NCBI GenBank assembly: GCA_030680575.1
Contig: JAUXVI010000045.1
Span: forward strand, 1-64,000
From: Hylemonella sp.
Lineage (GTDB): Bacteria > Pseudomonadota > Gammaproteobacteria > Burkholderiales > Burkholderiaceae_C
Length of the DNA: 64,000 bases
Direction of reading: 5' to 3'
The position numbers and the translations under genes are program-made. Shown in pieces: positions 11,202 through 64,000 of this stretch; within the stretch, counting starts at the first letter, position 1, and each line of letters begins with the position of its first letter. The notes below the pieces were generated by a model, which saw only the letters and a list, made by a program, of their open reading frames with translations, was not told the DNA's origin and made no database searches.

Positions 11202-11574
11202 GGGGCTGCACTGGTTTCGACGTGGGTTCGGACACGCAGCAGGGCATGTCGAGGTTCTGTCACCTCGTAAAACCGCAGAAAAAAACTAACTGCAAACGAC
11301 GAACGTTTCGCACTCGCCGCTTAATCCGGTGAGCCTTGCAACAGTTGGCCGATAGGCTGGGCAAGGGGGCGTAAGCCTCCAGGCTGCAAGGGAATTCATA
11401 TTGGCTGGTCTGCCTCCGGGTGCCTTGGGGGTGGACGAGAAAATAGGGTACTGGTCTGATGCGTAGCGTGTCGCTGCGCGACGCATCGGGCGAGATCCAA
11501 ATCAGACGACTACACATGTAGAACTGCGCGAAGAAGGCTTGCGGACGGGGGTTCAAATCCCCCCAGCTCCACCA
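11202..11574 (+). ncRNA. ssrA: Transfer-messenger RNA (tmRNA)
   Basis: tmRNA rescues stalled ribosomes and tags the unfinished protein for proteolysis. The acceptor stem GGGGCTG (11202-11208) pairs with CAGCTCC (11564-11570, one G-U pair), and the encoded ACCA end follows. The tRNA-like start CACTGGTTTCGACGTGGGTT and the T-arm GGGGGTTCAAATCCCCCC are standard. The tag reading frame at 11292-11324 gives ANDERFALAA then TAA, the betaproteobacterial tag ending in the ALAA degron. Total length 373 bases is normal for a one-piece tmRNA. The accessory island begins just beyond it; ssrA 3' ends are well-known integration sites. Confidence 0.97.
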
Positions 11575-51289: not shown

Positions 51290-51639
51290 TCGCCCATCCT
51301 TCGCGGCGCTTTGTGTTCCGGCTGGCGCTGGCTTTGGGCTTGCCGGTGCGCGAGATGCTCGCATCGATGGGATCTGACGAGCTGACCGAGTGGATGGCGT
51401 ACTACCAGCTCGAGCCCTTCGGGGACTACCGGGCCGATTACAGGTCCGGCGTGGTGGCCTCCACCTTTGCCAATGCCCACCGGGCCAAGGATGCGGGGCC
51501 GTTTCGGCCAGAAGACTTCATGCCGTTCCTCGAAAAACCGCAACCCACCCAACCTCAAGACGAAACACAGCTCAATGTGGCCCGGTTCAAGGCCATGTTC
51601 GCGCACAAGGTCCACATAAGGCAATCACAGCATGGCTGA
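51283..51639 (+). CDS. Tail assembly chaperone, T part reached by -1 frameshift
   Basis: The downstream 118 residues are read only after the shift at 51277-51283: RLIAHPSRRFVFRLALALGLPVREMLASMGSDELTEWMAYYQLEPFGDYRADYRSGVVASTFANAH. This is the DUF4035-type T domain. The combined G-GT product would be about 229 residues. Internal GTG at 51313 could in theory start a shorter product but has no ribosome site; the conserved HPSRRFVFRLALALG block begins upstream of it, which supports the frameshift. It overlaps the tape measure start by eight bases. Confidence 0.83.
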   Translation, partial: RLIAHPSRRFVFRLALALGLPVREMLASMGSDELTEWMAYYQLEPFGDYRADYRSGVVASTFANAHRAKDAGPFRPEDFMPFLEKPQPTQPQDETQLNVARFKAMFAHKVHIRQSQHG

Positions 51640-54076
51640 TATCGGCTCCCTCGTGGTCAAACTTGCAGCGGAAACGGCCGATTTCCGCGAAGACCTGGGC
51701 AAGAGTGCATTGCTTTTGGAGCGTCACGCGGAATCCATGCGTGGCTCTCTCGAAAAAGTGGCCGAAGTCGCCAAAACCACCTTTGCCATCGCCATCGGCG
51801 TGGAGTCGGTGGGGGCACTCAAAGAGTTGGTGGCCCACACACTGGAAACGGTGGCCGCCCTGCAGGATCTGGCCGAGCAGACCGGGGCGAGCGCCACGGC
51901 CCTGTCCGGCTTTGCACCGGTGGCCACCATCTCTGGCGTGGCGATGGAGCAGATCGGCGTAGGCCTGACCAAGCTCTCCAAGGGTCTGGCCGGGGTGGAC
52001 GATGAGACCAAGGGTGCTTCTCAGGCCCTGCAGTTTCTGGGCATCAAGGCCAAGGATGCAGGGGGAAACCTGCGCGATCCGGCCGAGGTCATGAATGACA
52101 TTGCCCTGAAACTGTCCAATTTCGAGGACGGGGCAGGCAAGACGGCAATTGCGCTTGAACTGTTTGGCAAATCTGGGGCGGGGCTGCTGCCCTTCCTCAA
52201 AGACCTGGCTGCCAACCAGGACCTGAACATCCGGCTCACTGAAGCAGAGATCGAATCTGCCGAGAAAGCCTCGAAGGCGCTGGGCCGCATGCGGGCCGAG
52301 CACAACTTCGTCGCCCAGACCATCGTGACGGCGGCGCTGCCTGCACTCGAAGAATTGGTCGGTGAGCTCAAGGCAGTGATGCTGGGCACGTACAACACGG
52401 CTGAGGCCATGGTCAAGCTGCGAGACGATGGCACGCTCAAGACCTGGGCGCAGGACACGGCGTATGGCATTGCCATCGTGATCGACGCGCTGCGAGGTGT
52501 GATCCAGATGGCCAAGGCGATCATGGGCAGCTTCGAGGCGGTCTGGGCCGATATTGAGCTGCTCGGCACGTTCCTCGCCGGTGGCAAGGGACTGAACCCG
52601 TTTTCCGAGGAAAACCAGGCCACCCTCAAGACCGCATTGGAAAAACGCAACGCGATCGTTGAGAAGGCCAATCAGACCTACGTTGACCTCTGGAAGATGC
52701 CTTTGCTCGCAAATGCAGTCAAGGAGCGTTTCGATGCGATCAACAAGGGAGAAGCCGAGGCTGCGTCCGAAGCCAAAAAGCCCAAGCTCAACTACAACTC
52801 GGCAACTGGTGCGCTCACCGCAGCGGCCATGGCCAAGATTGAGAGCGACATCAAGCAGCTGCAGGGTCTGACCGATGTGGAAACGGGCCTTCTGAAGGAC
52901 CGTCAAAAGATCGTCGACCTCTATGAGGGGCAGGGTTACATCAGCTACAAGGAGGCCAGTGAGGCCCGGCTGAACGCCCAGCAGGAATTCACGGACCGCC
53001 TGGGCGAGTTGTATGCGCAGGAAGAGTCCATCTTGAAGCGTGGACTGGCCACCGTGGCCAAGACAGCCCAGGACAAATTGAAGCTCCAGGACAAACTCTC
53101 AGAAATCACCCTTCGCCGAGAAAAGCTCGAGCGTGAAGCCCAGCAGTCTAATCTCGAGCGTGAAATCAAGCTGCCGGGTGAAGCACTCAAAGACCTGCAG
53201 GAGCAGGTGGCCAGGAGCCAGGGTCAGCTGCGATCGAGTGAAGAGCAGATCAAGGTCCTACGTGAGACTGGATCGATCAGCGAGATTGATGCGCTGAAAC
53301 GTCTGTCCGCTGCCAGGTGCTCCAGCGCCGATGAGTTGGCGGATTTCGCGGCCAAGGCCAGAGAGCTGGTGGAGGCCACGCCTGGCAACGACAAGTTGGC
53401 CGAATCGTTTCGGCGCATTGAGGAGGCGGCCCGTCAGGCAGCCGATGGAGCGACCTTGTTGGGGCAACGGGCCCTTGAGTTGTCAGACCCTGGCGCAGGC
53501 TTCTCCAAGGCGCTTCGCACCCTGGGTGAAGAAACCGAGCAGGTGGGCAAGCAGATGGAGGCGGTGACCACCAAGGCGTTCAATGGGATGACGGATGCGC
53601 TCACCAACTTCGTGATGACGGGCAAGCTCGACTTCAAGTCGCTGGCCACCTCCATCATCTCTGACCTGATCCGCATTCAGATCCAGCGTGCCATCACGCT
53701 GCCCATGGCCAAGGCGCTGGGAAGCATGTTCGGGTTCGCCGATGGCGGGATCATGACCTCATCGGGCCCTTTGCCTTTGCGGGCCTACGCCAGTGGCGGG
53801 GTGGCCACAACGCCTCAGTTGGCGGTCTTTGGCGAGGGCTCCATGGCCGAGGCCTATGTGCCGCTGCCTGATGGTCGATCCATTCCCGTGACCATGAACC
53901 AGTCTGCCTCTGGTGGCGGGGATGTTTTCAATATCTCGGTCAACGTAGCCGAGGGTGGGGTGACCAGCAGCGCAGGGCAGGGCAAAGACCTGGGGCGGGC
54001 GATTTCAAGCGCGGTGCGCCAGGAGCTGCTCAACCAAAAGCGGGCCGGTGGTCTGCTGGACCCGCGTCGGCATTGA
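51632..54076 (+). CDS. Tail tape measure protein
   Basis: An 814-residue protein that sets tail length. At roughly 0.15 nm per residue, a rule from other siphoviruses, the tail would be about 120 nm long. The N-terminus (IGSLVVKLAAETADFREDLGKSALLLERHAESMRGSLEKVAEVAKTTFAIAIG) and long coiled-coil stretches (about 440-600) fit the family. A hydrophobic piece lies at LRGVIQMAKAIMGSFEAVWADIELLGTFLAG, and the C-terminal FNGMTDALTNFVMTGKLDFKSLATSIISDLIRIQIQRAITLPMAKALG is the lambda gpH-like tail end. Confidence 0.93.
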   Translation: MADIGSLVVKLAAETADFREDLGKSALLLERHAESMRGSLEKVAEVAKTTFAIAIGVESVGALKELVAHTLETVAALQDLAEQTGASATALSGFAPVATISGVAMEQIGVGLTKLSKGLAGVDDETKGASQALQFLGIKAKDAGGNLRDPAEVMNDIALKLSNFEDGAGKTAIALELFGKSGAGLLPFLKDLAANQDLNIRLTEAEIESAEKASKALGRMRAEHNFVAQTIVTAALPALEELVGELKAVMLGTYNTAEAMVKLRDDGTLKTWAQDTAYGIAIVIDALRGVIQMAKAIMGSFEAVWADIELLGTFLAGGKGLNPFSEENQATLKTALEKRNAIVEKANQTYVDLWKMPLLANAVKERFDAINKGEAEAASEAKKPKLNYNSATGALTAAAMAKIESDIKQLQGLTDVETGLLKDRQKIVDLYEGQGYISYKEASEARLNAQQEFTDRLGELYAQEESILKRGLATVAKTAQDKLKLQDKLSEITLRREKLEREAQQSNLEREIKLPGEALKDLQEQVARSQGQLRSSEEQIKVLRETGSISEIDALKRLSAARCSSADELADFAAKARELVEATPGNDKLAESFRRIEEAARQAADGATLLGQRALELSDPGAGFSKALRTLGEETEQVGKQMEAVTTKAFNGMTDALTNFVMTGKLDFKSLATSIISDLIRIQIQRAITLPMAKALGSMFGFADGGIMTSSGPLPLRAYASGGVATTPQLAVFGEGSMAEAYVPLPDGRSIPVTMNQSASGGGDVFNISVNVAEGGVTSSAGQGKDLGRAISSAVRQELLNQKRAGGLLDPRRH

Positions 54077-55885: not shown

Positions 55886-56453
55886 ACTGGGCAAGCGCTT
55901 CGGGCGTCGGCACAGGATGGCGGTGACCTCGGCGGCTGAGGCCGTGCGCGCCCTTTGTGCCAACTTCCCCGGTTTCGAACGGGCGCTGGTCGCCTCGGGT
56001 GAGCGGGGAGTGGGTTACCGGGTGCTGGCTGGAAGGGAAGCCCTGAGCCTTGATCGCCTACACGAGCCCAGTGGCCGACAGCGCATCACCATCGCGCCGG
56101 TCGTGTCCGGGGCCGGTGGCAACGGGCTGGGTCAGATCCTGCTGGGCGCAGCCCTGATCGCCGTGTCCTGGTGGAACCCGATGGGCTGGGCCGCAGCAGG
56201 TTCTTTCCTGTCGCAGGCCACTCTGTATTCGGTGGGCACATCCATGATCCTGGGCGGTGTGGCACAGATGATTGCCCCCACCGTCAAAGCCCAGGACCCT
56301 TCTGAGCGGCCAGGCAACCAGCCTAGTTATGTTTTCAACGGCGCTGTGAACACCACGGCCCAAGGGCATCCCGTGCCAGTGGGTTACGGGCGGCTGATCG
56401 TAGGTTCTGCTGTGATCAGCGCAGGTATTGATGTGGATGAAATCGCAGCATGA
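55860..56453 (+). CDS. Tail assembly protein I
   Basis: A 197-residue protein like lambda gpI: VTILLLGELGKRFGRRHRMAVTSAAEAVRALCANFPGFERAL (ubiquitin-like part), a hydrophobic Gly/Ala stretch (GLGQILLGAALIAVSWWNPMGWAAAGSFLSQATLYSVGTSMILGGVAQMIAP) and the C-terminal PSYVFNGAVNTTAQGHPVPVGYGRLIVGSAVISAGI. It overlaps K by 26 bases and J by four, the normal order K-I-J. Confidence 0.92.
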   Translation: MVTILLLGELGKRFGRRHRMAVTSAAEAVRALCANFPGFERALVASGERGVGYRVLAGREALSLDRLHEPSGRQRITIAPVVSGAGGNGLGQILLGAALIAVSWWNPMGWAAAGSFLSQATLYSVGTSMILGGVAQMIAPTVKAQDPSERPGNQPSYVFNGAVNTTAQGHPVPVGYGRLIVGSAVISAGIDVDEIAA

Positions 56454-59400
56454 GCACCCAGAGCACTTCTCTGATCATTGGCGCAGGTGGTGGTGGCAAA
56501 GGTGGTGGCGGCAGCGCTCGCGTGGCGCAGGAAGCGCCCGACAGCCTGCGCTCCAAGGCCTATGCCAGGGTGGTTGACCTCGTCTGCGAGGGTGAGATTG
56601 AGGGCTTGGCCGCAAACCTGCAATCCGTCTACCTGGACGACACCCCTATCCAGAATCAGGACGGCAGCTACAACTTCACGGGGGTAACGCTCGAAACCCG
56701 CCCTGGCACCCAGCAACAAAGCTACATCCCCGGCTTCTCCGCTGTGGAAAACGAAGTGGCTGTTGGGGTGGAGTGCAAGGCCAATCAGCCGGTGGTGCGC
56801 TCCATCACTGACCCTGACGTGGATGCCGTGCGCATCAAGGTCAGTATCCCGACGCTCACGCTGCAAGACACTACCAACGGTGACCTGAACGGCACTTCGG
56901 TCAGCTACGCGATCGACGTGCAGGCGCGGGGAGCCGGGTATGTGCAGGTGGTCTCCGACACGGTCTCGGGCAAAACCACTTCGCGGTACCAGCGCAGCTA
57001 CTACGTCCCGCTCATTGGCGCTGGTCCTTGGGATGTGCGCCTGCGCCGCATCACGGCCGACTCGACGCAGACCAGCCTGCAAAACAAGACATTTCTGGAC
57101 TCGTATACCGAGGTAATCGAAAGCAAGCTGCGTTACCCCAACAGCGCATTGATGGCCTTGCGGGTGGATGCCTCTCAGTTCACCTCGATTCCAAGGCGCA
57201 GCTATGACCTCAAGCTCCTGCGCGTTCGCATCCCCTCGAATTACTCTCCCGAGACCCGGTCGTACAGCGGCATCTGGGACGGCACCTTCAAGGTGGCGTG
57301 GACAGACAACCCTGCCTGGTGCTTTTATGACCTGGTGACCAATACCCGCTACGGTCTGGGCAGTTTCATTCCCGAGTCGCAGGTGGATAAGTGGGCGCTG
57401 TACCGGGTGGCGCGTTACTGTGACGAACTCGTGCCCAATGGACTGGGTGGCTATGAGCCGCGATTTAGCTGCAATCTGTATCTGCAAAGCCGCGAGCAGG
57501 CCTACAAGGTGGTGCAGGACATGGCCTCGATTTTCAGGGGCATGGCTTATTGGTCTGGCGGAGCAATCACGGTCACGCAGGATGCGCCCCAGGATCCCGT
57601 CTACCAGTTCACGGCTGCCAACGTCATCGGTGGCGAGTTCGCCTATCAGGGGTCATCCGCCAAGGCGCGGCACACGGTTGCTTTGGTCAGCTGGGTGGAT
57701 CCGGATGATTTCTACCGTCAGAAGGTGGAATATGTCGAAGACATGGCAGGCATTGCCCGCTATGGCGTGGTTCAGGCCGATGTGGTGGCCATGGGCTGCA
57801 CCTCCCGAGGTCAAGCTCACCGGGTGGGAAAGTGGCTGCTGTATTCCGAGCAGTCCGAATCGGAAATCATCACATTCCGCACGGGGCTGGAAGGCGCTGT
57901 TGTGCGTCCCGGCGATGTCATCAAGGTGGCTGACAGCAGCCGGGGTGGCCTGCGCTTGGGCGGACGCATCGCTGCGGCCACCACGATAAGCGTCACGCTG
58001 GATCAGGACCTGCCCGCCGGTTCGTGGCGCATCTCTGTGCTGCTGCCCACGGGAGTGGTGGTGGAGCGCCAAGTCGGATCCCTGTCGGGTCGCACGGTCG
58101 GTGTGACCAGCGCATTCTCTTTGGCACCTCAGGCGGGTGCCATCTGGGTGCTGGCCTCTACGCAAGTGGAGACGCAATTGTTCAGGGTGGTGCAGGTCGC
58201 AGAGAGCGAGCCGGGCATTCATGAAGTCACTGCACTGGCTCACAACCCGAGTAAATATGACGCCATTGAGCGGGGGCTGGCACTGCAGCCGCGTGATATC
58301 ACGGTGCTCTCCACAACGCCTGTGGCGCCCACGGGCCTGTTGGTCACCGAGAGCCTGTACCGGGTCAAGGATCAGGCGCTGGTACTCATTCAGTTGGGGT
58401 GGGAGCAGGTCTTCGGCGCCCTGGAGTACCAGGTGAGCTATCGGGTCAATGGCGGCAACACCGTCACCTTGCCCCGGAGTTCGAGCACCTATCTGGAGAT
58501 TCGAAACGCCGAGGCCGGGGATTATGTTTTCACGGTTCGGGCTGTGGGGGTGTCCGGCAAGCTTGGGGCCTCGGCCTCATTGAGCCAGACCATCCTTGGC
58601 AAACTACAGCCGCCCGATGACGTGCAGGACTTTGTGGTGCTGCGCCGCACGACCGATCTGCTGCTGAGCTGGAGCGCCAACACGGATGCCGATTTGGCGG
58701 GGTACGAGGTGAGGGTGGGCACGGGCTGGGATGCGGGAACGCTGGTTGGGCAGACCGCTGGTACCCAGCTCGTGCATGACCAAAGTGAATCAGGTCGGTA
58801 CAACTACTTCATCCGAGCCTTTGATACCTCTGGCAAGTACAGCCAGCATGTCGCCACCTTCGAGTTGGTCCTGTTGGCACCAGCCGCAGTGCGGCAGTTC
58901 GATGTGGTCCAGTCGGCCAACCGGCTGGAGTTTCGTTGGCTGCCCAATCCTGAGCCGGAGGTGGTGGCCTATGAGCTGCGAGAAGGCACGGCCTGGGACA
59001 CCTCAATCTTCATTGCAGAGGTCAAGTCCAGCAGCTTCACATTGCCTTCGGGCTTTGACGGTGAGCGTAATTTCTGGATCAAGGCAATCGCCTCGCCGGG
59101 CATCTATTCGGACGAGGCCACCTTCGTCTCGACGGTGGTGGCTCAGCCCCAGAACGCCAACCTGCTGGTCACCATCGATGCACAGGCCACCCGGTTTCCA
59201 GGGGTGAAGCATTTCGCATCGGTCGAGTCGGTCAACAGCCTGGATGTGCTGCGCATGGACAGTGGAGTGGCGCAGTCCGAGTACTTGTTCGAGGTGAATC
59301 TGCCCACCAGCTACCGGGCGCAAAACACCCTGCTGGCCAGCATCGGGGCCACGCTGGATGATAGGGAAACCTGGTCGACAGCGAACTACGTCTGGAGCAG

Positions 59401-59959
59401 TAATGCTGCCAAACGCCAATGGACCTATGACGGTGCGCTCAAAAGCATCGAAGCGAGGTTTCAGATGGCGCGCGAAGATGCATTGCAGGCCGGAGAGCTG
59501 TACGGCTGGCGCCTCAATGGTGCGCTGGCAGGGTACGGCAGCCCTAACAGCGGGGAGGCCGTGGGCGTGAGCTATGGCGACGGGCGATACGGCAGTGGGG
59601 TACTCATCAAGGACACGACTCGGGTTTCCTGGGGTGTGAGCATCCCGGGGGTGTTCCATGTGAGCTTTTGGTTCATCCCGAACCAAATCACCACCTCGAT
59701 CATTTGGACAGCATCTGGTGCAGGGGTGAGCCTGCTTGTGGGCTTCGATGCGGCGGTAGGCAGCTTCTTTCTGGAAGACCACCTGTTCAACCGAATCGTC
59801 GTGCCATACCCCGTGAGCGTCAGCGACCGAATTTGCGTTGGTGTGTGTCAGACGGCCACTGAACGCAGGCTCTTTGTCGGAAAGATGGGCGGCGATGTGC
59901 AAAGCGCAAGCAGCCCTTTGCAACCCACTGCCGGATACACCGTCCTCAAGCTGTATTGA
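56450..59959 (+). CDS. Tail tip / host specificity protein J
   Basis: A 1169-residue central tail tip protein. The first about 500 residues are the conserved gpJ baseplate part (DSLRSKAYARVVDLVCEGEIEGL, SYNFTGVTLETRPGTQQQ, YYVPLIGAGPWDVRLRRITADS, IPSNYSPETRSYSGIWDGTFKVAWTDNPAWCFYDLVTNTRYGLG). About 620-900 contain fibronectin-III-like repeats (PTGLLVTESLYRVKDQALVLIQLGWEQ; PPDDVQDFVVLRRTTDLLLSWSANTDADLAGYEVRVG; AVRQFDVVQSANRLEFRWLPNPEPEVVAYELREG). The C-terminal 250 residues are unlike lambda J and probably bind the receptor. A strong terminator follows. Confidence 0.95.
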   Translation: MSTQSTSLIIGAGGGGKGGGGSARVAQEAPDSLRSKAYARVVDLVCEGEIEGLAANLQSVYLDDTPIQNQDGSYNFTGVTLETRPGTQQQSYIPGFSAVENEVAVGVECKANQPVVRSITDPDVDAVRIKVSIPTLTLQDTTNGDLNGTSVSYAIDVQARGAGYVQVVSDTVSGKTTSRYQRSYYVPLIGAGPWDVRLRRITADSTQTSLQNKTFLDSYTEVIESKLRYPNSALMALRVDASQFTSIPRRSYDLKLLRVRIPSNYSPETRSYSGIWDGTFKVAWTDNPAWCFYDLVTNTRYGLGSFIPESQVDKWALYRVARYCDELVPNGLGGYEPRFSCNLYLQSREQAYKVVQDMASIFRGMAYWSGGAITVTQDAPQDPVYQFTAANVIGGEFAYQGSSAKARHTVALVSWVDPDDFYRQKVEYVEDMAGIARYGVVQADVVAMGCTSRGQAHRVGKWLLYSEQSESEIITFRTGLEGAVVRPGDVIKVADSSRGGLRLGGRIAAATTISVTLDQDLPAGSWRISVLLPTGVVVERQVGSLSGRTVGVTSAFSLAPQAGAIWVLASTQVETQLFRVVQVAESEPGIHEVTALAHNPSKYDAIERGLALQPRDITVLSTTPVAPTGLLVTESLYRVKDQALVLIQLGWEQVFGALEYQVSYRVNGGNTVTLPRSSSTYLEIRNAEAGDYVFTVRAVGVSGKLGASASLSQTILGKLQPPDDVQDFVVLRRTTDLLLSWSANTDADLAGYEVRVGTGWDAGTLVGQTAGTQLVHDQSESGRYNYFIRAFDTSGKYSQHVATFELVLLAPAAVRQFDVVQSANRLEFRWLPNPEPEVVAYELREGTAWDTSIFIAEVKSSSFTLPSGFDGERNFWIKAIASPGIYSDEATFVSTVVAQPQNANLLVTIDAQATRFPGVKHFASVESVNSLDVLRMDSGVAQSEYLFEVNLPTSYRAQNTLLASIGATLDDRETWSTANYVWSSNAAKRQWTYDGALKSIEARFQMAREDALQAGELYGWRLNGALAGYGSPNSGEAVGVSYGDGRYGSGVLIKDTTRVSWGVSIPGVFHVSFWFIPNQITTSIIWTASGAGVSLLVGFDAAVGSFFLEDHLFNRIVVPYPVSVSDRICVGVCQTATERRLFVGKMGGDVQSASSPLQPTAGYTVLKLY

Positions 59960-59981: not shown

Positions 59982-60019
59982 CGGGCGTTGCATTGAAAGG
60001 TGCAGCGCCCGTTTTGTTT
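59982..60019 (+). terminator. Terminator after gene J
   Basis: CGGGCGTTGCA (59982-59992) pairs over 11 positions (one G-T) with TGCAGCGCCCG (60001-60011), loop TTGAAAGG, then TTTTGTTT. It ends the long structural message and separates the fibre module that follows. Confidence 0.85.
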
Positions 60020-60037
60020 GAAGAAACGGAAAACTCC

Positions 60038-60484
60038 ATGATTGAAGAAGGCATGAGCATCAAAGGCTCAATCACGTTGCTGCTGGCCAAGCCCACAGGC
60101 GAAGTCGAGGTGGTGCACAAGGACAACATCATCGTCAATGGCGGCTTTGACTTCGTGGCCGATGCCATTGGCAATTCGGCCAGCCGCCCCGGTGTCATGG
60201 GCTGGATTGCGGTGGGCACTGGCTCCACGGCCGCTGCTGCCACTCAGACTGCCCTGGTCACCGAAATCAAGCGCAATGCGGCCACGTATGCCCACACGGC
60301 TGGCACCAAGGTGTTCACTTTCACGGCCAGTTATCCAGCGGGTGATGCCACTGGTGCGCTCACCGAGGCGGGCGTGTTCAATGCGGCCTCTGCTGGCGCC
60401 ATGTTCGATCGGGTCGTGTTCCCGGTGGTGAACAAAGGCGTGGACGACAGTCTGACGGCTGTTTTCACCTTCACCATGAGCTGA
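60038..60484 (+). CDS. Fibre-module protein of unknown function
   Basis: A 148-residue protein (MIEEGMSIKGSITLLLAKPTGEVEVVHKDNIIVNGGFDFVADAIGNSASRPGVMGWIAVGTGSTAAAATQTALVTEI) ending in DATGALTEAGVFNAASAGAMFDRVVFPVVNKGVDDSLTAVFTFTMS. This beta-rich pattern (GVGTG...DTALxxE) is common in small tail-fibre-associated proteins. The start is set at 60038 because upstream in-frame codons fall inside the terminator hairpin; 60053 is also possible. Confidence 0.75.
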   Translation: MIEEGMSIKGSITLLLAKPTGEVEVVHKDNIIVNGGFDFVADAIGNSASRPGVMGWIAVGTGSTAAAATQTALVTEIKRNAATYAHTAGTKVFTFTASYPAGDATGALTEAGVFNAASAGAMFDRVVFPVVNKGVDDSLTAVFTFTMS

Positions 60485-60497
60485 TCGGGAACCTGAT

Positions 60498-61688
60498 ATG
60501 GCCGAGACCGTCAACGTCTCCAGCTCGCCGGGGGCCAACTACACCTGGACTTCCGGCAAGTTTGCCTGGAGCAGCGCTACGGCAGGCAAAAACTGGACAA
60601 CGGCCTACCCGGCGGTCTACGCCCTGAGCGTGGCCACTGACCTGAGTTTTGCCGAGTTGGTTCAGAAATTGGGCATCAAGCGCAATTCTGAGAGCATGAC
60701 CTTCTCGGATAAATCCAGCCGGGCTTTGGCACTCAACAAGTACGAGAACCTGAACTTTGTCGAGACCTACACCGACCTGATTGCCTTTGTGCTGCGTTTC
60801 GTTGAGTCCCTGACGTTCACGGAAAAGTACGCCCGCACGGGCACCAAAGCCGTCTTCGAGGCGTTTCAGGTGGGGGAGGGACTGGCACGGCAGTTGGTAT
60901 TGCGCAAATACGAGACGCTGGCGCTGGCTGAGACCTACACGGACCTCATTGCTTTCATCCTGAGGGTATCCGAGAGCCTGAGTTTTTCCGAGAAGCCTTC
61001 CAAAGGGATGACCAAGCCACAGGCTGAAAACTTCAGGCTGAGCGATGCACTGGTCAAGTCGCAGGTTAAGCAAATCTCCGAGGCCTTCAGTCTGGCCGAG
61101 GCGCTGGGCCGAACGGTCGCGTACCGCCGTGCCATCAACGAAGGCTTTGCCATTGGCGAGGCGATCAGGCGCGCACAGACTTTGAAGCTCAGCGAGGCCT
61201 TTAGTCTGGCCGAGCAGTACCGGCGCCGGGCCAATGGGGTGATCAGCGACATGATCGTTGCCAACACCGAGATCACCGAGCAGGACTTCATGGACATTCT
61301 GGAGTCTGGTCACCCCCCCGGGTACACCAATTTCCGGGACTTCATCCAGGGCGACTACACCTACCAGCGTGCGCTTTTCAGGGCAATCCTGACTTCAAGT
61401 AATGCAGACCGAGGCTACATCGATGGCCTGCGGGTAACTGTGGACGTGCCCGATGTGTTCGATCGAGGCACGGCGCAGGTGGTTACCGCGTCCAGTGGCG
61501 TGACAGTCATTTTTGTGCGGACTTTCCGCGTATCGCCGGAGGTCACTCTGACCTTCAAGGGCGGTACCACCGTGGCAATTCCACGAATCCTTGGAACGGT
61601 CACCACCGCAGGCTTTACCGCTGTTTTGGAAAACACCTCTGGCGCCCGCGTAACGGGAGCCATCTCTTGGATTGCACAGGGATATTGA
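60498..61688 (+). CDS. Repeat-containing tail fibre protein
   Basis: A 396-residue protein. Residues about 49-246 are made of roughly eleven imperfect repeats of 18-20 residues with the core E-(A/S)-(F/L)-(S/T)-(L/F)-(A/S)-E, for example ESLTFTEKYARTG, EAFSLAEALGRT, EGFAIGEAIRR and EAFSLAEQYRRR. Two copies share YTDLIAF-LR. The C-terminal 150 residues are a separate domain (YTYQRALFRAILTSSNADRGYIDGLRVTVDVPDVFDRGTAQV). A repeated shaft plus a tip suggests an extended fibre or a baseplate spacer. Exact family not recognised. Confidence 0.78.
   Translation: MAETVNVSSSPGANYTWTSGKFAWSSATAGKNWTTAYPAVYALSVATDLSFAELVQKLGIKRNSESMTFSDKSSRALALNKYENLNFVETYTDLIAFVLRFVESLTFTEKYARTGTKAVFEAFQVGEGLARQLVLRKYETLALAETYTDLIAFILRVSESLSFSEKPSKGMTKPQAENFRLSDALVKSQVKQISEAFSLAEALGRTVAYRRAINEGFAIGEAIRRAQTLKLSEAFSLAEQYRRRANGVISDMIVANTEITEQDFMDILESGHPPGYTNFRDFIQGDYTYQRALFRAILTSSNADRGYIDGLRVTVDVPDVFDRGTAQVVTASSGVTVIFVRTFRVSPEVTLTFKGGTTVAIPRILGTVTTAGFTAVLENTSGARVTGAISWIAQGY
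60642..61235 (+). repeat. 18-20 residue protein repeats in fibre gene
   Basis: About eleven tandem coding repeats, each one strand-like AFSLAE or SLTFTE core plus a basic helix-like stretch. DNA identity between copies is low, so these are old, selected repeats rather than recent slippage. Confidence 0.6.
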
Positions 61689-61699
61689 AAGGTTACTGA

Positions 61700-62710
61700 A
61701 TGCAAAACTACACCGAAATCCCATCCAGCACGACGCTCTCGGACTCGCTGTCTCAGATTCTGAACAACGACAAGACGGCGCTGTCGCTCTCCAGTGGTAC
61801 GGCGTTCCCGACGGTGAATCTGCAGCAGGGTATGCCGTGTTTCAGGACCGATGAGCAAAAGCTCTACATCCTCACAGTGGTCAGTCCTGTCACGTGGAAG
61901 ATGGTCATTGACCTGTCGGCCACGTTGGGCAAGGTGGCCAATGCTGATCTGCTGGACGGTATTGACTCCACCGGATTTGCACTGAGTGGTCACAACCACG
62001 ATGCCGCATATGCGGCGCTGGGTCACAACCACAACACGGTATACCTGGGCATCACGGCGAAGGCCACCGACGCCGACAAGCTCGACGGCTATGACTCCAC
62101 AGTCTTTGTGCGTTCAGTCAACGGCAACACCCCAGATGCCACTGGCAATGCCACCGTACCGATCGATTTGTCCAGTCGATTGGCCAAAGCCGGTGACACG
62201 ATGACAGGTCATCTGTACATGGGTACTGGCGCAGTGATTTACTCGTCGCAGTCTGGTGCGGCGGACAACGCTCGCAACACTGGCTATCGCATGAACGATG
62301 GACAGGACATTGGCGAGATGGGGCGCAGCAACCAGTACTACGACGACTTGGCGGGCAACTGCAATGGCATCTTGCCGACCGGCAACTGCGCAGGCAATAC
62401 GTACTGGAAACCCTCCAATACCAGCTGGTGGACCTGGGGCCTGGGGTTCAACTATTGCGCCAACTCGGCCCAATACGACGGGGCCGGTGGGACGACCTAT
62501 GCCTACAACGCTGTACCTAGCACGGGTTTCAACTACGACGGCTACTACCTGGCCCAAGACGAGATTGCCGGGGGCGAGTACCACCGCTGGTACCGGGCTT
62601 GCAATTGCAACTGCAACTGTGGCAGCTACACCAATTGCAATTGCGGCAACACGGCCTTCAACTGCCGCACAAACTGCAATTGCAACTGTGCTTGCTGCGG
62701 TTGCTGCTGA
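61700..62710 (+). CDS. Tail fibre with HxH motifs and Asn/Cys-rich end
   Basis: A 336-residue fibre protein. Residues about 80-140 hold two LDG(I/Y)DST-F repeats (NADLLDGIDSTGF, DADKLDGYDSTVF), common in phage fibre shafts, around GHNHDAAYAALGHNHNTVYL. That segment has two HxH motifs like those that bind metal in T4-type fibre tips. Residues about 165-300 are an aromatic, Asn/Gly-rich head domain. Residues 301-336 are extraordinary: alternating Cys-Asn (CNCNCNCGSYTNCNCG), ending CACCGCC, 14 cysteines in 36 residues. Such an end could be disulfide-linked, bind metal or be modified. It is followed 14 bases later by the next gene. Confidence 0.85.
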   Translation: MQNYTEIPSSTTLSDSLSQILNNDKTALSLSSGTAFPTVNLQQGMPCFRTDEQKLYILTVVSPVTWKMVIDLSATLGKVANADLLDGIDSTGFALSGHNHDAAYAALGHNHNTVYLGITAKATDADKLDGYDSTVFVRSVNGNTPDATGNATVPIDLSSRLAKAGDTMTGHLYMGTGAVIYSSQSGAADNARNTGYRMNDGQDIGEMGRSNQYYDDLAGNCNGILPTGNCAGNTYWKPSNTSWWTWGLGFNYCANSAQYDGAGGTTYAYNAVPSTGFNYDGYYLAQDEIAGGEYHRWYRACNCNCNCGSYTNCNCGNTAFNCRTNCNCNCACCGCC

Positions 62711-62724
62711 AAGAGGTGAACCAC

Positions 62725-63531
62725 ATGAAAGTTTTTCTTGTGCGCGCGGGCAAGCTCTCGACTGCGCTGGACTACGCCATTCATCTCAAAGTGGACCTGA
62801 CGGCTGAGCAGGTGCTCATGCGTTTTGGCTTGCGACACCGTCCGGATAGTGATCAACCTTCTGACTTTTCTGTGGAGGGGGTGGCTTACCAGGTGGTTGC
62901 CGAGCAGTTGTTTGCCTATCGTGAGCTGCGAAACAACCGAGGGTGGTCCGACCGACAGTCCTTCATGACCGGTTACCGCTGGGCAGAAAAACGGCTCATC
63001 GATCCGTTGCCCTTGTATGTCTACACCCTGTCTACGCGTTTTACAGCGCCAGAAGCTTCGGGGCATGTCTGGAACGGTAACTTCCTGACCGGATTTAACG
63101 TGCCCTTTGCGGACAGCAGCTTTGATGAATGCTTCGTGACGGTGAACCTTCATCCCACACTTGGAGGGTGTCTGGTTGAAGGTGTGGCTTCCACGGATGT
63201 GGAACACACCGATTACCAGTCATCTGCTCAGGTAAGGGAAATGGAGTTCCCAGACTTGCGGGTGATTGCCCCCGCAAATGTCATAGCGGGGGATCCAGCC
63301 GAATTCACTGTGCAGATGCTCGACGGCTTGGGCAATCCCAGCAACCGTGATGCAGAGATTCACTTTGAGTCGGTCAATGGTTATCTGCCCGTCAGCCGAC
63401 GCCGAACGCAGGGCGGGATGACCACAGCCACCGTCATGACCTTGGGGCTTCAAGCTGGCGACACCGTCCGATTGAAAGCGGGCTTCAAGTTCTACCCCGG
63501 CTGCGCCGATGCTCAGGTGGTCCTTTCATGA
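62725..63531 (+). CDS. Fibre-module protein with Ig-like C-terminus
   Basis: A 268-residue protein unknown to me. The first about 110 residues are mixed (MKVFLVRAGKLSTALDYAIHLKVDLTAEQVLMRFGLRHRPDS). A central part has three cysteines or so. Residues about 173-268 read like a bacterial Ig-like (Big/invasin) domain: DLRVIAPANVIAGDPAEFTVQMLDGLGNPSNRDAEIHFESVNGYLPVSRRRTQGGMTTATVMTLGLQAGDTVRLKAGF. The start at 62725 follows AAGAGGTGA. The stop overlaps the start of the oxygenase-like gene (ATGA), so the two are co-translated. Confidence 0.75.
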   Translation: MKVFLVRAGKLSTALDYAIHLKVDLTAEQVLMRFGLRHRPDSDQPSDFSVEGVAYQVVAEQLFAYRELRNNRGWSDRQSFMTGYRWAEKRLIDPLPLYVYTLSTRFTAPEASGHVWNGNFLTGFNVPFADSSFDECFVTVNLHPTLGGCLVEGVASTDVEHTDYQSSAQVREMEFPDLRVIAPANVIAGDPAEFTVQMLDGLGNPSNRDAEIHFESVNGYLPVSRRRTQGGMTTATVMTLGLQAGDTVRLKAGFKFYPGCADAQVVLS

Positions 63532-64000
63532 TTCGCGAACTGTTTTCTGCTCGGGTCTACCAAGTTCAACTGAGTTTTGAGGATGGCCTGCGTGATCAGA
63601 TGCTCAAAGGGGCGATGGATTTTCATCAGCGGCTCAATCGGGATGGGCAGCCCTGGGCGCGCAAAAGCCGTCAGTCCCTGATCGATCATGAAAGCTCCTG
63701 TGACGTCTTCAGACCCTTGGTAAATCAAGTTCGTGAAGCCATTGGGCACGCCTACCAGTGCGAACCCGTGTGGCAAACCGCCCGAGAGGTCATCACCCAA
63801 CCTGGTCAGTTCATTCCGCTGCATGCCGAAGACACCGATCTTTCGGCGGTGTATTGGATTGACGGAAATGCTCGGCCAGATCCTTCTCGCCAGGACTACT
63901 CCGGCGCTTTTGTGCTGGTCAATCCCAGCGGTGCTTACGGCAGCCGCAAATTGCCCTGGGAAGGCTGGCGCTCGGAAATCATCCATCCGTACCCCGGCCT
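63528..64000 (+). CDS. 2OG-Fe(II) oxygenase-like protein (partial, runs off the right edge)
   Basis: The visible 157 codons begin MIRELFSARVYQVQLSFEDGLRDQML. TQPGQFIPLHAEDTDLSAVYWIDG (near residues 90-113) carries an HxE motif, and SGAFVLVNPSGAYGSRKLPWEGWRSEIIHPYPGL follows. This layout fits 2-oxoglutarate/Fe(II) dioxygenases of the type seen in phages, which use HxD/E plus a distal His to bind iron; the distal His and the Arg for 2OG should lie beyond the window. It overlaps the preceding fibre-module gene by four bases, so a substrate within the fibre proteins is plausible. The family call is moderately sure. Confidence 0.6.
   Translation, partial: MIRELFSARVYQVQLSFEDGLRDQMLKGAMDFHQRLNRDGQPWARKSRQSLIDHESSCDVFRPLVNQVREAIGHAYQCEPVWQTAREVITQPGQFIPLHAEDTDLSAVYWIDGNARPDPSRQDYSGAFVLVNPSGAYGSRKLPWEGWRSEIIHPYPG

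Follow-up and report, generated by a model that had tools for sequence, protein, structure and literature searches.

An Asn/Cys-alternating tail of phage fibres is linked to a phage radical SAM/SPASM enzyme and is probably its substrate

Many unrelated phage tail fibres end in a tail in which Asn and Cys alternate, and this tail is linked to a phage-encoded radical SAM/SPASM enzyme. We judge it likely that the tail is a portable substrate module on phage fibres which is covalently modified by the enzyme, most likely with thioethers; for thioethers specifically, we put the chances at about even. Since the tail is the feature common to the fibres and is placed at their end, it is probably the substrate. 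A little more cautiously, we favour the view of a widespread phage system: a dedicated maturase would introduce non-canonical covalent bonds into the modular Asn/Cys tip of many unrelated fibres, with oxygenases, a second radical SAM enzyme or Hint as optional steps. This system is best read as a RiPP-like process, encoded by the phage, that matures the tip of a virion fibre.

The tail was found in the window, that is, the whole 64,000-nucleotide stretch of DNA analysed here, which lies within a 76,968-base contig (C8) of a 3.42 Mb genome in 58 contigs. The second half of the window is a prophage, with a terminase, a portal, a lambda-type tape measure (51632-54076) and a J-like tip protein, and then the genes starting at 59993, 60498 and 61700. 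The last of these encodes the fibre, downstream of the tape measure and the J-like protein. The features relevant to this work are as follows.

56450-59959, plus strand: J-like tail tip attachment protein upstream of the fibre (FNIII-A_GpJ, Phage-tail_3)
59993-60484, plus strand: tail gene, PHROG 5417, used as the co-occurrence anchor
61700-62710, plus strand: tail fibre protein of 336 residues, with a TGA stop codon at 62708-62710; it consists of an N-terminal part (residues ~1-172) common to many relatives, a C-terminal domain and the Asn/Cys tail
62597-62707, plus strand: Asn/Cys-alternating C-terminal tail (residues 300-336, 14 Cys), the proposed substrate segment
62725-63531, plus strand: partner gene of 268 residues, without a Pfam match, directly 3' of the fibre gene
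63528-64000, plus strand: first of three consecutive 2OG-Fe(II) oxygenase-like genes, continuing to position 64109 of the contig

The radical SAM/SPASM gene of the same prophage is located at contig positions 65569-66990, 2.9 kb after the fibre gene and 1.6 kb outside the window, and the three oxygenase-like genes (63528-64000 of the window and L002:1529-3373) lie between it and the fibre gene. The neighbouring tail protein at 60498-61688 contains, by eye, degenerate (E/A)(S/A)(L/F)(S/T)(F/L)(S/T/A)E-like repeats, and Tandem Repeats Finder (TRF) lists a weak array at 60959-60998.

The last 37 residues of the fibre are ACNCNCNCGSYTNCNCGNTAFNCRTNCNCNCACCGCC. An earlier note on this DNA had called attention to 14 cysteines in 36 residues at the fibre end, and we confirmed this count on the 336-residue reading frame at 61700-62710. 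Residues 301-336 (62600-62707), CNCNCNCGSYTNCNCGNTAFNCRTNCNCNCACCGCC, contain 14 Cys and 10 Asn, and the whole fibre contains 18 Cys. In 5000 shuffles of the fibre, no 36-residue stretch contained more than 10 Cys (the densest one had 5.0 on average), and an alternating run of at least four Cys arose in 39 of 20,000 shuffles. In the AlphaFold prediction, which covered the monomer only, the tail is without structure (pLDDT 31-37), and the model of the fibre domain is poor (pLDDT 49).

A sequencing artefact or a frameshift as the source of the repeat is ruled out by five contigs from different metagenomes (L003-L007), which carry the identical tail with synonymous differences only. The relatives do not end before the tail either. 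The Asn/Cys segment is present in 54 of the 54 loci found by a viral-contig search with the C-terminal domain, in which two of the six search patterns contained tail letters. A search with a different type of fibre body, from which the tail had been removed, retrieved 79 loci (75 complete fibres and 4 cut by the contig end), and all 75 complete fibres have at least three alternating Cys within the last 60 residues. In a 38-row alignment of C-terminal domains (A2), the conserved core is NCNC..FNCxTNCNCNC, in which the NCNC stretches are invariant and the FNC that separates them is nearly so.

The earlier note had also described the tail as a TGCAAT/TGCAAC hexamer run that can vary fast by slippage. 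A pure hexamer run is not present, as the Asn and Cys codons are irregularly mixed (AAT/AAC, TGC/TGT) and TRF lists no repeat there. The proposed variation is weakly supported, in that relatives differ from one another by one or two terminal NC units (NCNCNCACCGCC, NCNCNCNCNCCGCC and NCNCNCNCNCSTDC). Against it, the amino acids of the tail are unchanged in five near relatives, and the five comparisons together give 39 synonymous and 0 non-synonymous codon differences; fibre residues 161-299 show 146 synonymous and 25 non-synonymous differences from the same relatives. A slippage array as the main explanation is rejected on these codon differences together with the mixed codons and the missing TRF array.

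The linkage between tail and enzyme was observed in searches starting from the fibre, from a neighbouring gene and from the enzyme. With a profile built from the enzymes of Achromobacter phage JWF and the window's prophage, 46 of the 54 fibre-relative loci proved to have the enzyme, encoded downstream and on the same strand. In L025, it is located at the end of the locus, ~6 kb downstream of the fibre, and the remaining 7 contigs, which have no enzyme match, end inside the fibre gene or at most 1.7 kb from it. The query without a tail gave a similar picture: the enzyme accompanies 68 of the 75 complete fibres, and the other 7 have less than 4 kb of downstream sequence.

A pattern scan of viral contigs for exact CNCNCNC codons yielded at least 118 further loci, some of which are second views of contigs already counted. 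When the motif was C-terminal, defined as at most 25 residues from the stop of a reading frame of at least 65 residues, the enzyme was present in 42 of the 53 loci listed (41 downstream on the same strand and one, L134, overlapping), and the 11 tail loci without it have at most 2.4 kb of downstream sequence. When the motif was non-coding or elsewhere, the enzyme was present in one of the 65 loci listed (L079), where it lies upstream of an NC stretch inside a longer reading frame. This contrast gives a Fisher p of 1.6e-20, calculated with relatedness ignored.

Queries with gene 59993 and the J-like gene gave 119 further loci, from which 10 without the anchor and 77 shorter loci were set aside. 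All 32 loci with gene 59993 and at least 7.5 kb of downstream sequence (23 distinct sequences) carry both tail and enzyme, in a set that contains no system-free loci and hence provides no contrast. Among the 77 shorter loci, 36 have both, 39 have neither, one has the tail only and one the enzyme only.

The reverse search from the enzyme added at least 152 viral and genome loci, of which 29 with short flanks (12 with a tail) and 10 with a weak or no enzyme reading frame were set aside. Given at least 4.5 kb of upstream sequence, a strict C.C.C.C or Hint-fused tail was present in 50 of 59 viral loci and 38 of 54 genome loci (L328 doubtful). By eye, a looser C-terminus rich in Cys, such as NCNCNC or CSYCSYCTCAC, was recognised in 15 of the other 25 loci, leaving 10 of 113 enzyme loci in which no Cys-rich C-terminus was seen by eye (L212, L257, L294, L331, L332, L334, L335, L339, L340 and L350). 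Antisense reading frames with the motif numbered 6 in the viral set and 0 in the genome set. The reverse and anchor counts take in only loci new at that step, all counts include near-identical contigs, and several scans are lower bounds or comprise the best 80 matches.

Co-occurrence with the enzyme does not prove that the tail is its substrate. The pairing nevertheless strongly supports the suggestion of the earlier note that the tail may be a substrate for peptide modification, and we treat it as a candidate substrate on the strength of these sequence comparisons. Several arrangements beside the main pattern were also seen. C-termini with Cys at every third residue (CSYCSYC, SHCTYCAYC), a different repeat register, stand beside the same enzyme family in L246, L254, L293, L333, L336 and L346. 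Two successive NC-tailed reading frames precede one enzyme in L259-L261, L264, L324 and L330. Very small reading frames (67-82 residues read) with ..FDDYSTACNCNCNCNCTRGIL-like ends occur in L071, L080, L148 and L166; three of these four have radical SAM reading frames beside them (four in L071, three in L148), and the flank of L166 is too short.

The tail is carried by diverse fibre bodies. We collected 149 distinct fibre-enzyme pairs with a median gap of 1.5 kb; in one of them (L037) the wrong fibre was chosen, the real tail there being Hint-fused. The 148 clusterable bodies form 22 BLAST clusters, one of which is an artefact, under a stricter linkage (a looser one joined 139 of 149); with a few singletons alike by eye, they amount to some 20 body types. 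The candidate-substrate phage proteins range from roughly 70 to 890 residues, and the tail-bearing bodies include a collagen-like one (..GPQGPAG-NCNCACDCGNN). In the body used as the tail-less query, the first 172 residues are 89-92% shared with close relatives of the window's fibre (e.g. L396, L398 and L402), and the C-terminal domain is a different one. Since the N-terminal 172 residues are shared while the C-terminal domain differs, the C-terminal domain has been swapped and the tail kept. Among 665 residues at position X of C-X-C, Asn (426), Ala (121) and Asp (61) together make up 91%, followed by Gly (22) and few others.

Eleven loci have a tail that continues directly into a Hint-like stretch. 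A scan of the Hint-like loci other than L059 placed JWF and L052 above the Pfam cut-off and gave weaker matches in L296, L322, L353, L238 and L249; the Hint models had no match in L295, L357 and L037 (same contig as L243). The window's fibre has no Hint domain and does not belong to the Hint or bacterial intein-like families. Hint domains can cut at their N-terminus. In this minority of phages, cleavage at the end of the tail might therefore yield the same mature end that a stop codon provides in the unfused fibres.

The enzyme belongs to the radical SAM superfamily and carries a SPASM domain. C79, C83 and C86 are invariant in alignments A1 and A3, TIGR04085 matches above its cut-off, and the CX3CX2C motif occurs together with a seven-Cys SPASM pattern (CX9-15GX4C - CX2CX5CX3C - C) in 165 of 171 distinct full-length enzymes. 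For the Pfam Radical_SAM model, the JWF enzyme scores 37.7 bits, above the cut-off, and the window's enzyme 29.3 bits against a cut-off of 29.5. Since the curated peptide-maturase NCBIfam models among the best 25 matches listed (PapB, SCIFF, CcpM and others) all match far below their cut-offs, the enzyme is, judged by sequence, a separate family and not a member of the curated sactipeptide/ranthipeptide maturases. Domain models found no RRE family match in the enzyme; the first 60 residues of its structural model form three strands followed by a three-residue helix.

The AlphaFold model, made for the L208 protein (97% identical to the window's enzyme), is confident (pLDDT 92.6). Foldseek places CteB (5why/5wgg) first, followed by ChlB, TigE and anSME, with SkfB and SuiB later. 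A sequence-profile search gives a different order, in which TigE (4e-22) and anSME (2e-16) outscore CteB (2e-15), and the identity to CteB in the Foldseek alignment is only 16-18%. The anSME-type extra Cys was found by regular expression in none of the 171 enzymes, which have seven SPASM cysteines versus eight in anSME, so that Aux I resembles that of CteB. A section of PMC6231123 reports that Aux I of CteB has an open site, which a Cys from the leader of the substrate fills in the crystal structure, and mentions that seven SPASM cysteines had earlier led to a proposed open site in AlbA and other sactisynthases. Like the CteB/SCIFF maturases, the enzyme here has a Cys-rich candidate substrate nearby. 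The known CteB/SCIFF substrates are, however, short leader-bearing peptides, whereas the candidate here is the C-terminus of a phage protein. The tail likewise differs from a RiPP precursor, a short peptide from which a leader is removed, in being the end of a 336-residue fibre.

Two points favour thioethers: the enzyme's resemblance to CteB, and the fact that Asn and Ala have been recorded as acceptors. Asn and Ala serve as sactionine acceptors in thurincin H and ruminococcin C1 according to a portion of PMC8172795, and an excerpt of PMC8326336 reports that Asn20 of NxxcA is the acceptor for Cys23, three residues after it. In NCNC, an Asn three residues before a Cys recurs at every step. NxxcA, thurincin H and ruminococcin C are peptides and not fibres, and they are likened to the tail by these documented acceptor residues and not by sequence. 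It counts against thioethers that sactipeptide rings, as described in part of PMC8172795, mostly span more residues than the alternating NCNC offers locally.

We propose that the enzyme, encoded in the same tail gene row, would modify the tail before or during virion assembly. SAM-derived radicals would join the Cys sulfurs to carbons of neighbouring Asn, Ala or Asp residues, and through the resulting thioether cross-links a strand rich in thiols would become a rigid tip, resistant to proteases and to redox changes, at the far end of the fibre. The modified tip may serve host contact or tip stability.

The enzyme might instead epimerise the tail, converting alternate residues from L to D and producing a D/L Asn-Cys strand with a gramicidin- or polytheonamide-like beta-helix, perhaps as a membrane-inserting tip. 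We consider this unlikely. The small residues of the tail do alternate two by two, EpeE epimerases appear in the Foldseek list (best rank 44), and among NCBIfam models the window's enzyme matches the nif11-like maturase model TIGR04064 best, though far below its cut-off; we take this model to cover epimerases. Polytheonamide epimerisation proceeds in two-residue steps and its product forms channels, as stated in a passage of PMC8326336. According to the same passage, the proteusin epimerases (PoyD and OspD), which resemble the proposed enzyme in the radical SAM modification of alternating residues, have only the radical SAM cluster and a C-terminal RRE, without SPASM clusters, whereas the enzyme family here has the full SPASM pattern. 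Moreover, the nearest folds are thioether and anSME-type enzymes, and epimerisation would leave the need for Cys unexplained.

The earlier note also considered a metal-loaded or disulfide-bonded tip. We give still less credence to a metal-binding or disulfide-bonded tip that stays unmodified, with the enzyme acting elsewhere. Iron-binding HxH tips of T4-type needles are known, and the tail would be a Cys version of them; its Cys density and C-X-C spacing suit thiolate ligands. The window's tail contains no His and thus no HxH motif, and the pairing of enzyme and tail across some 20 unrelated fibre bodies would have no explanation. Conversion of tail Cys to formylglycine or a related reactive residue, through which the tip would bond covalently to the host surface, is highly improbable: anSME does rank near the top among solved folds and profile matches, and one JWF record annotates the enzyme as an anaerobic sulfatase-maturating enzyme, but by regular expression none of the 171 enzymes shows the anSME-type pattern with an extra cluster Cys, and the window's tail lacks the sulfatase-type motif C-x-P-x-R.

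If modification of the tail by the radical SAM/SPASM enzyme is the correct reading, phages complete their adsorption apparatus with radical-SAM chemistry, which to our knowledge has so far been reported in peptide natural products and a small number of cellular proteins. The fibres would then represent a new class of covalently built virion tips, the 149 pairs would offer thioether enzymology a set of enzymes with a minimal repeating substrate, and the generically annotated radical SAM genes in phage tail gene rows would gain a role.

Further genes recur between fibre and enzyme. The family of the partner gene at 62725 is located there in 117 of the 149 pairs, and a tblastn search of 50,697 phage records with this gene gave no match at E 1e-3. 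In 81 of the 149 pairs, the interval contains 2OG-Fe(II) oxygenase-like genes, and one of the three in the window's prophage matches an FlmC-family model below its cut-off. A second radical SAM enzyme precedes the main one in 17 of the 149 pairs; a second radical SAM reading frame with an intact CX3CX2C motif is found in L029, L031, L033-L035, L055, L102, L237, L242, L246, L265, L292, L333 and L336. The genes of these three kinds may help recognition or add modifications.

When three enzyme queries were searched against the 50,697 phage records, only Achromobacter phages JWF and 2-1 (three records) matched over most of the length. JWF is also the best match among cultured phages. The fibre of these Achromobacter phages contains ..NCNCDCNC(NC)SC.. 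and, unlike in the window, a Hint domain follows the tail. In JWF, the fibre gp028, gp029 and the radical SAM protein gp030 are encoded in a row, and gp029 does not match the 62725 family. The deposited JWF annotation names no link between fibre and enzyme, and in most of the open papers naming JWF, its genome paper aside, 'radical SAM' and 'Hint family' have 0 occurrences. The open PMC papers searched yielded no description of an Asn/Cys phage tail or of a phage fibre modified by a radical SAM enzyme. A further 15 Campylobacter phage records match ~30% of one enzyme query at ~31% identity. The CP220-type phages among the Campylobacter phages are alike in encoding radical SAM proteins, of which CP220 has 11, read as metabolic in a section of PMC2853527.

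The genome matches listed include Limnohabitans, whose enzyme is 85% identical to the window's, Burkholderia paludis, Thalassobacter, Thalassovita, Nereida, Magnetospirillum, Bradyrhizobium and others. On the strength of the 85% identity, the host of the window's prophage is probably a Burkholderiales bacterium of fresh water, near Limnohabitans. Plasmids gave no enzyme match at E 1e-20. A search of 300 genomes of the order matched one, the source genome itself. PHROG 1802 was rejected as a marker of the enzyme in cellular genomes, as it matched 37 of 369 genomes and also 5 of 14 control genomes. In 30 short PHROG 1802 loci, only the window's own enzyme matched the phage enzyme profile strongly. 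No tail was seen in 19 of these loci, which have at most 2.5 kb of upstream sequence, so short that the window's own locus fails likewise; the other 11 had no reading-frame match and were left out of the tail check. The enzyme was also seen on metagenome-assembled contigs labelled Planctomycetaceae, Prosthecobacter, Bacteroidetes and Klebsiella (L285, L287, L320 and L355), which are likely wrongly binned phage contigs.

Two observations concern other parts of the contig. The window contains a tmRNA gene at 11202-11574 with the tag ANDERFALAA. Directly beyond the prophage and outside the window, at L002:6447-14961 (~68.4-77.0 kb of contig C8), PADLOC identified SspB, SspC, SspD, a DndB-like gene and an SspH-like piece, which belong to a phosphorothioate-type anti-phage system.
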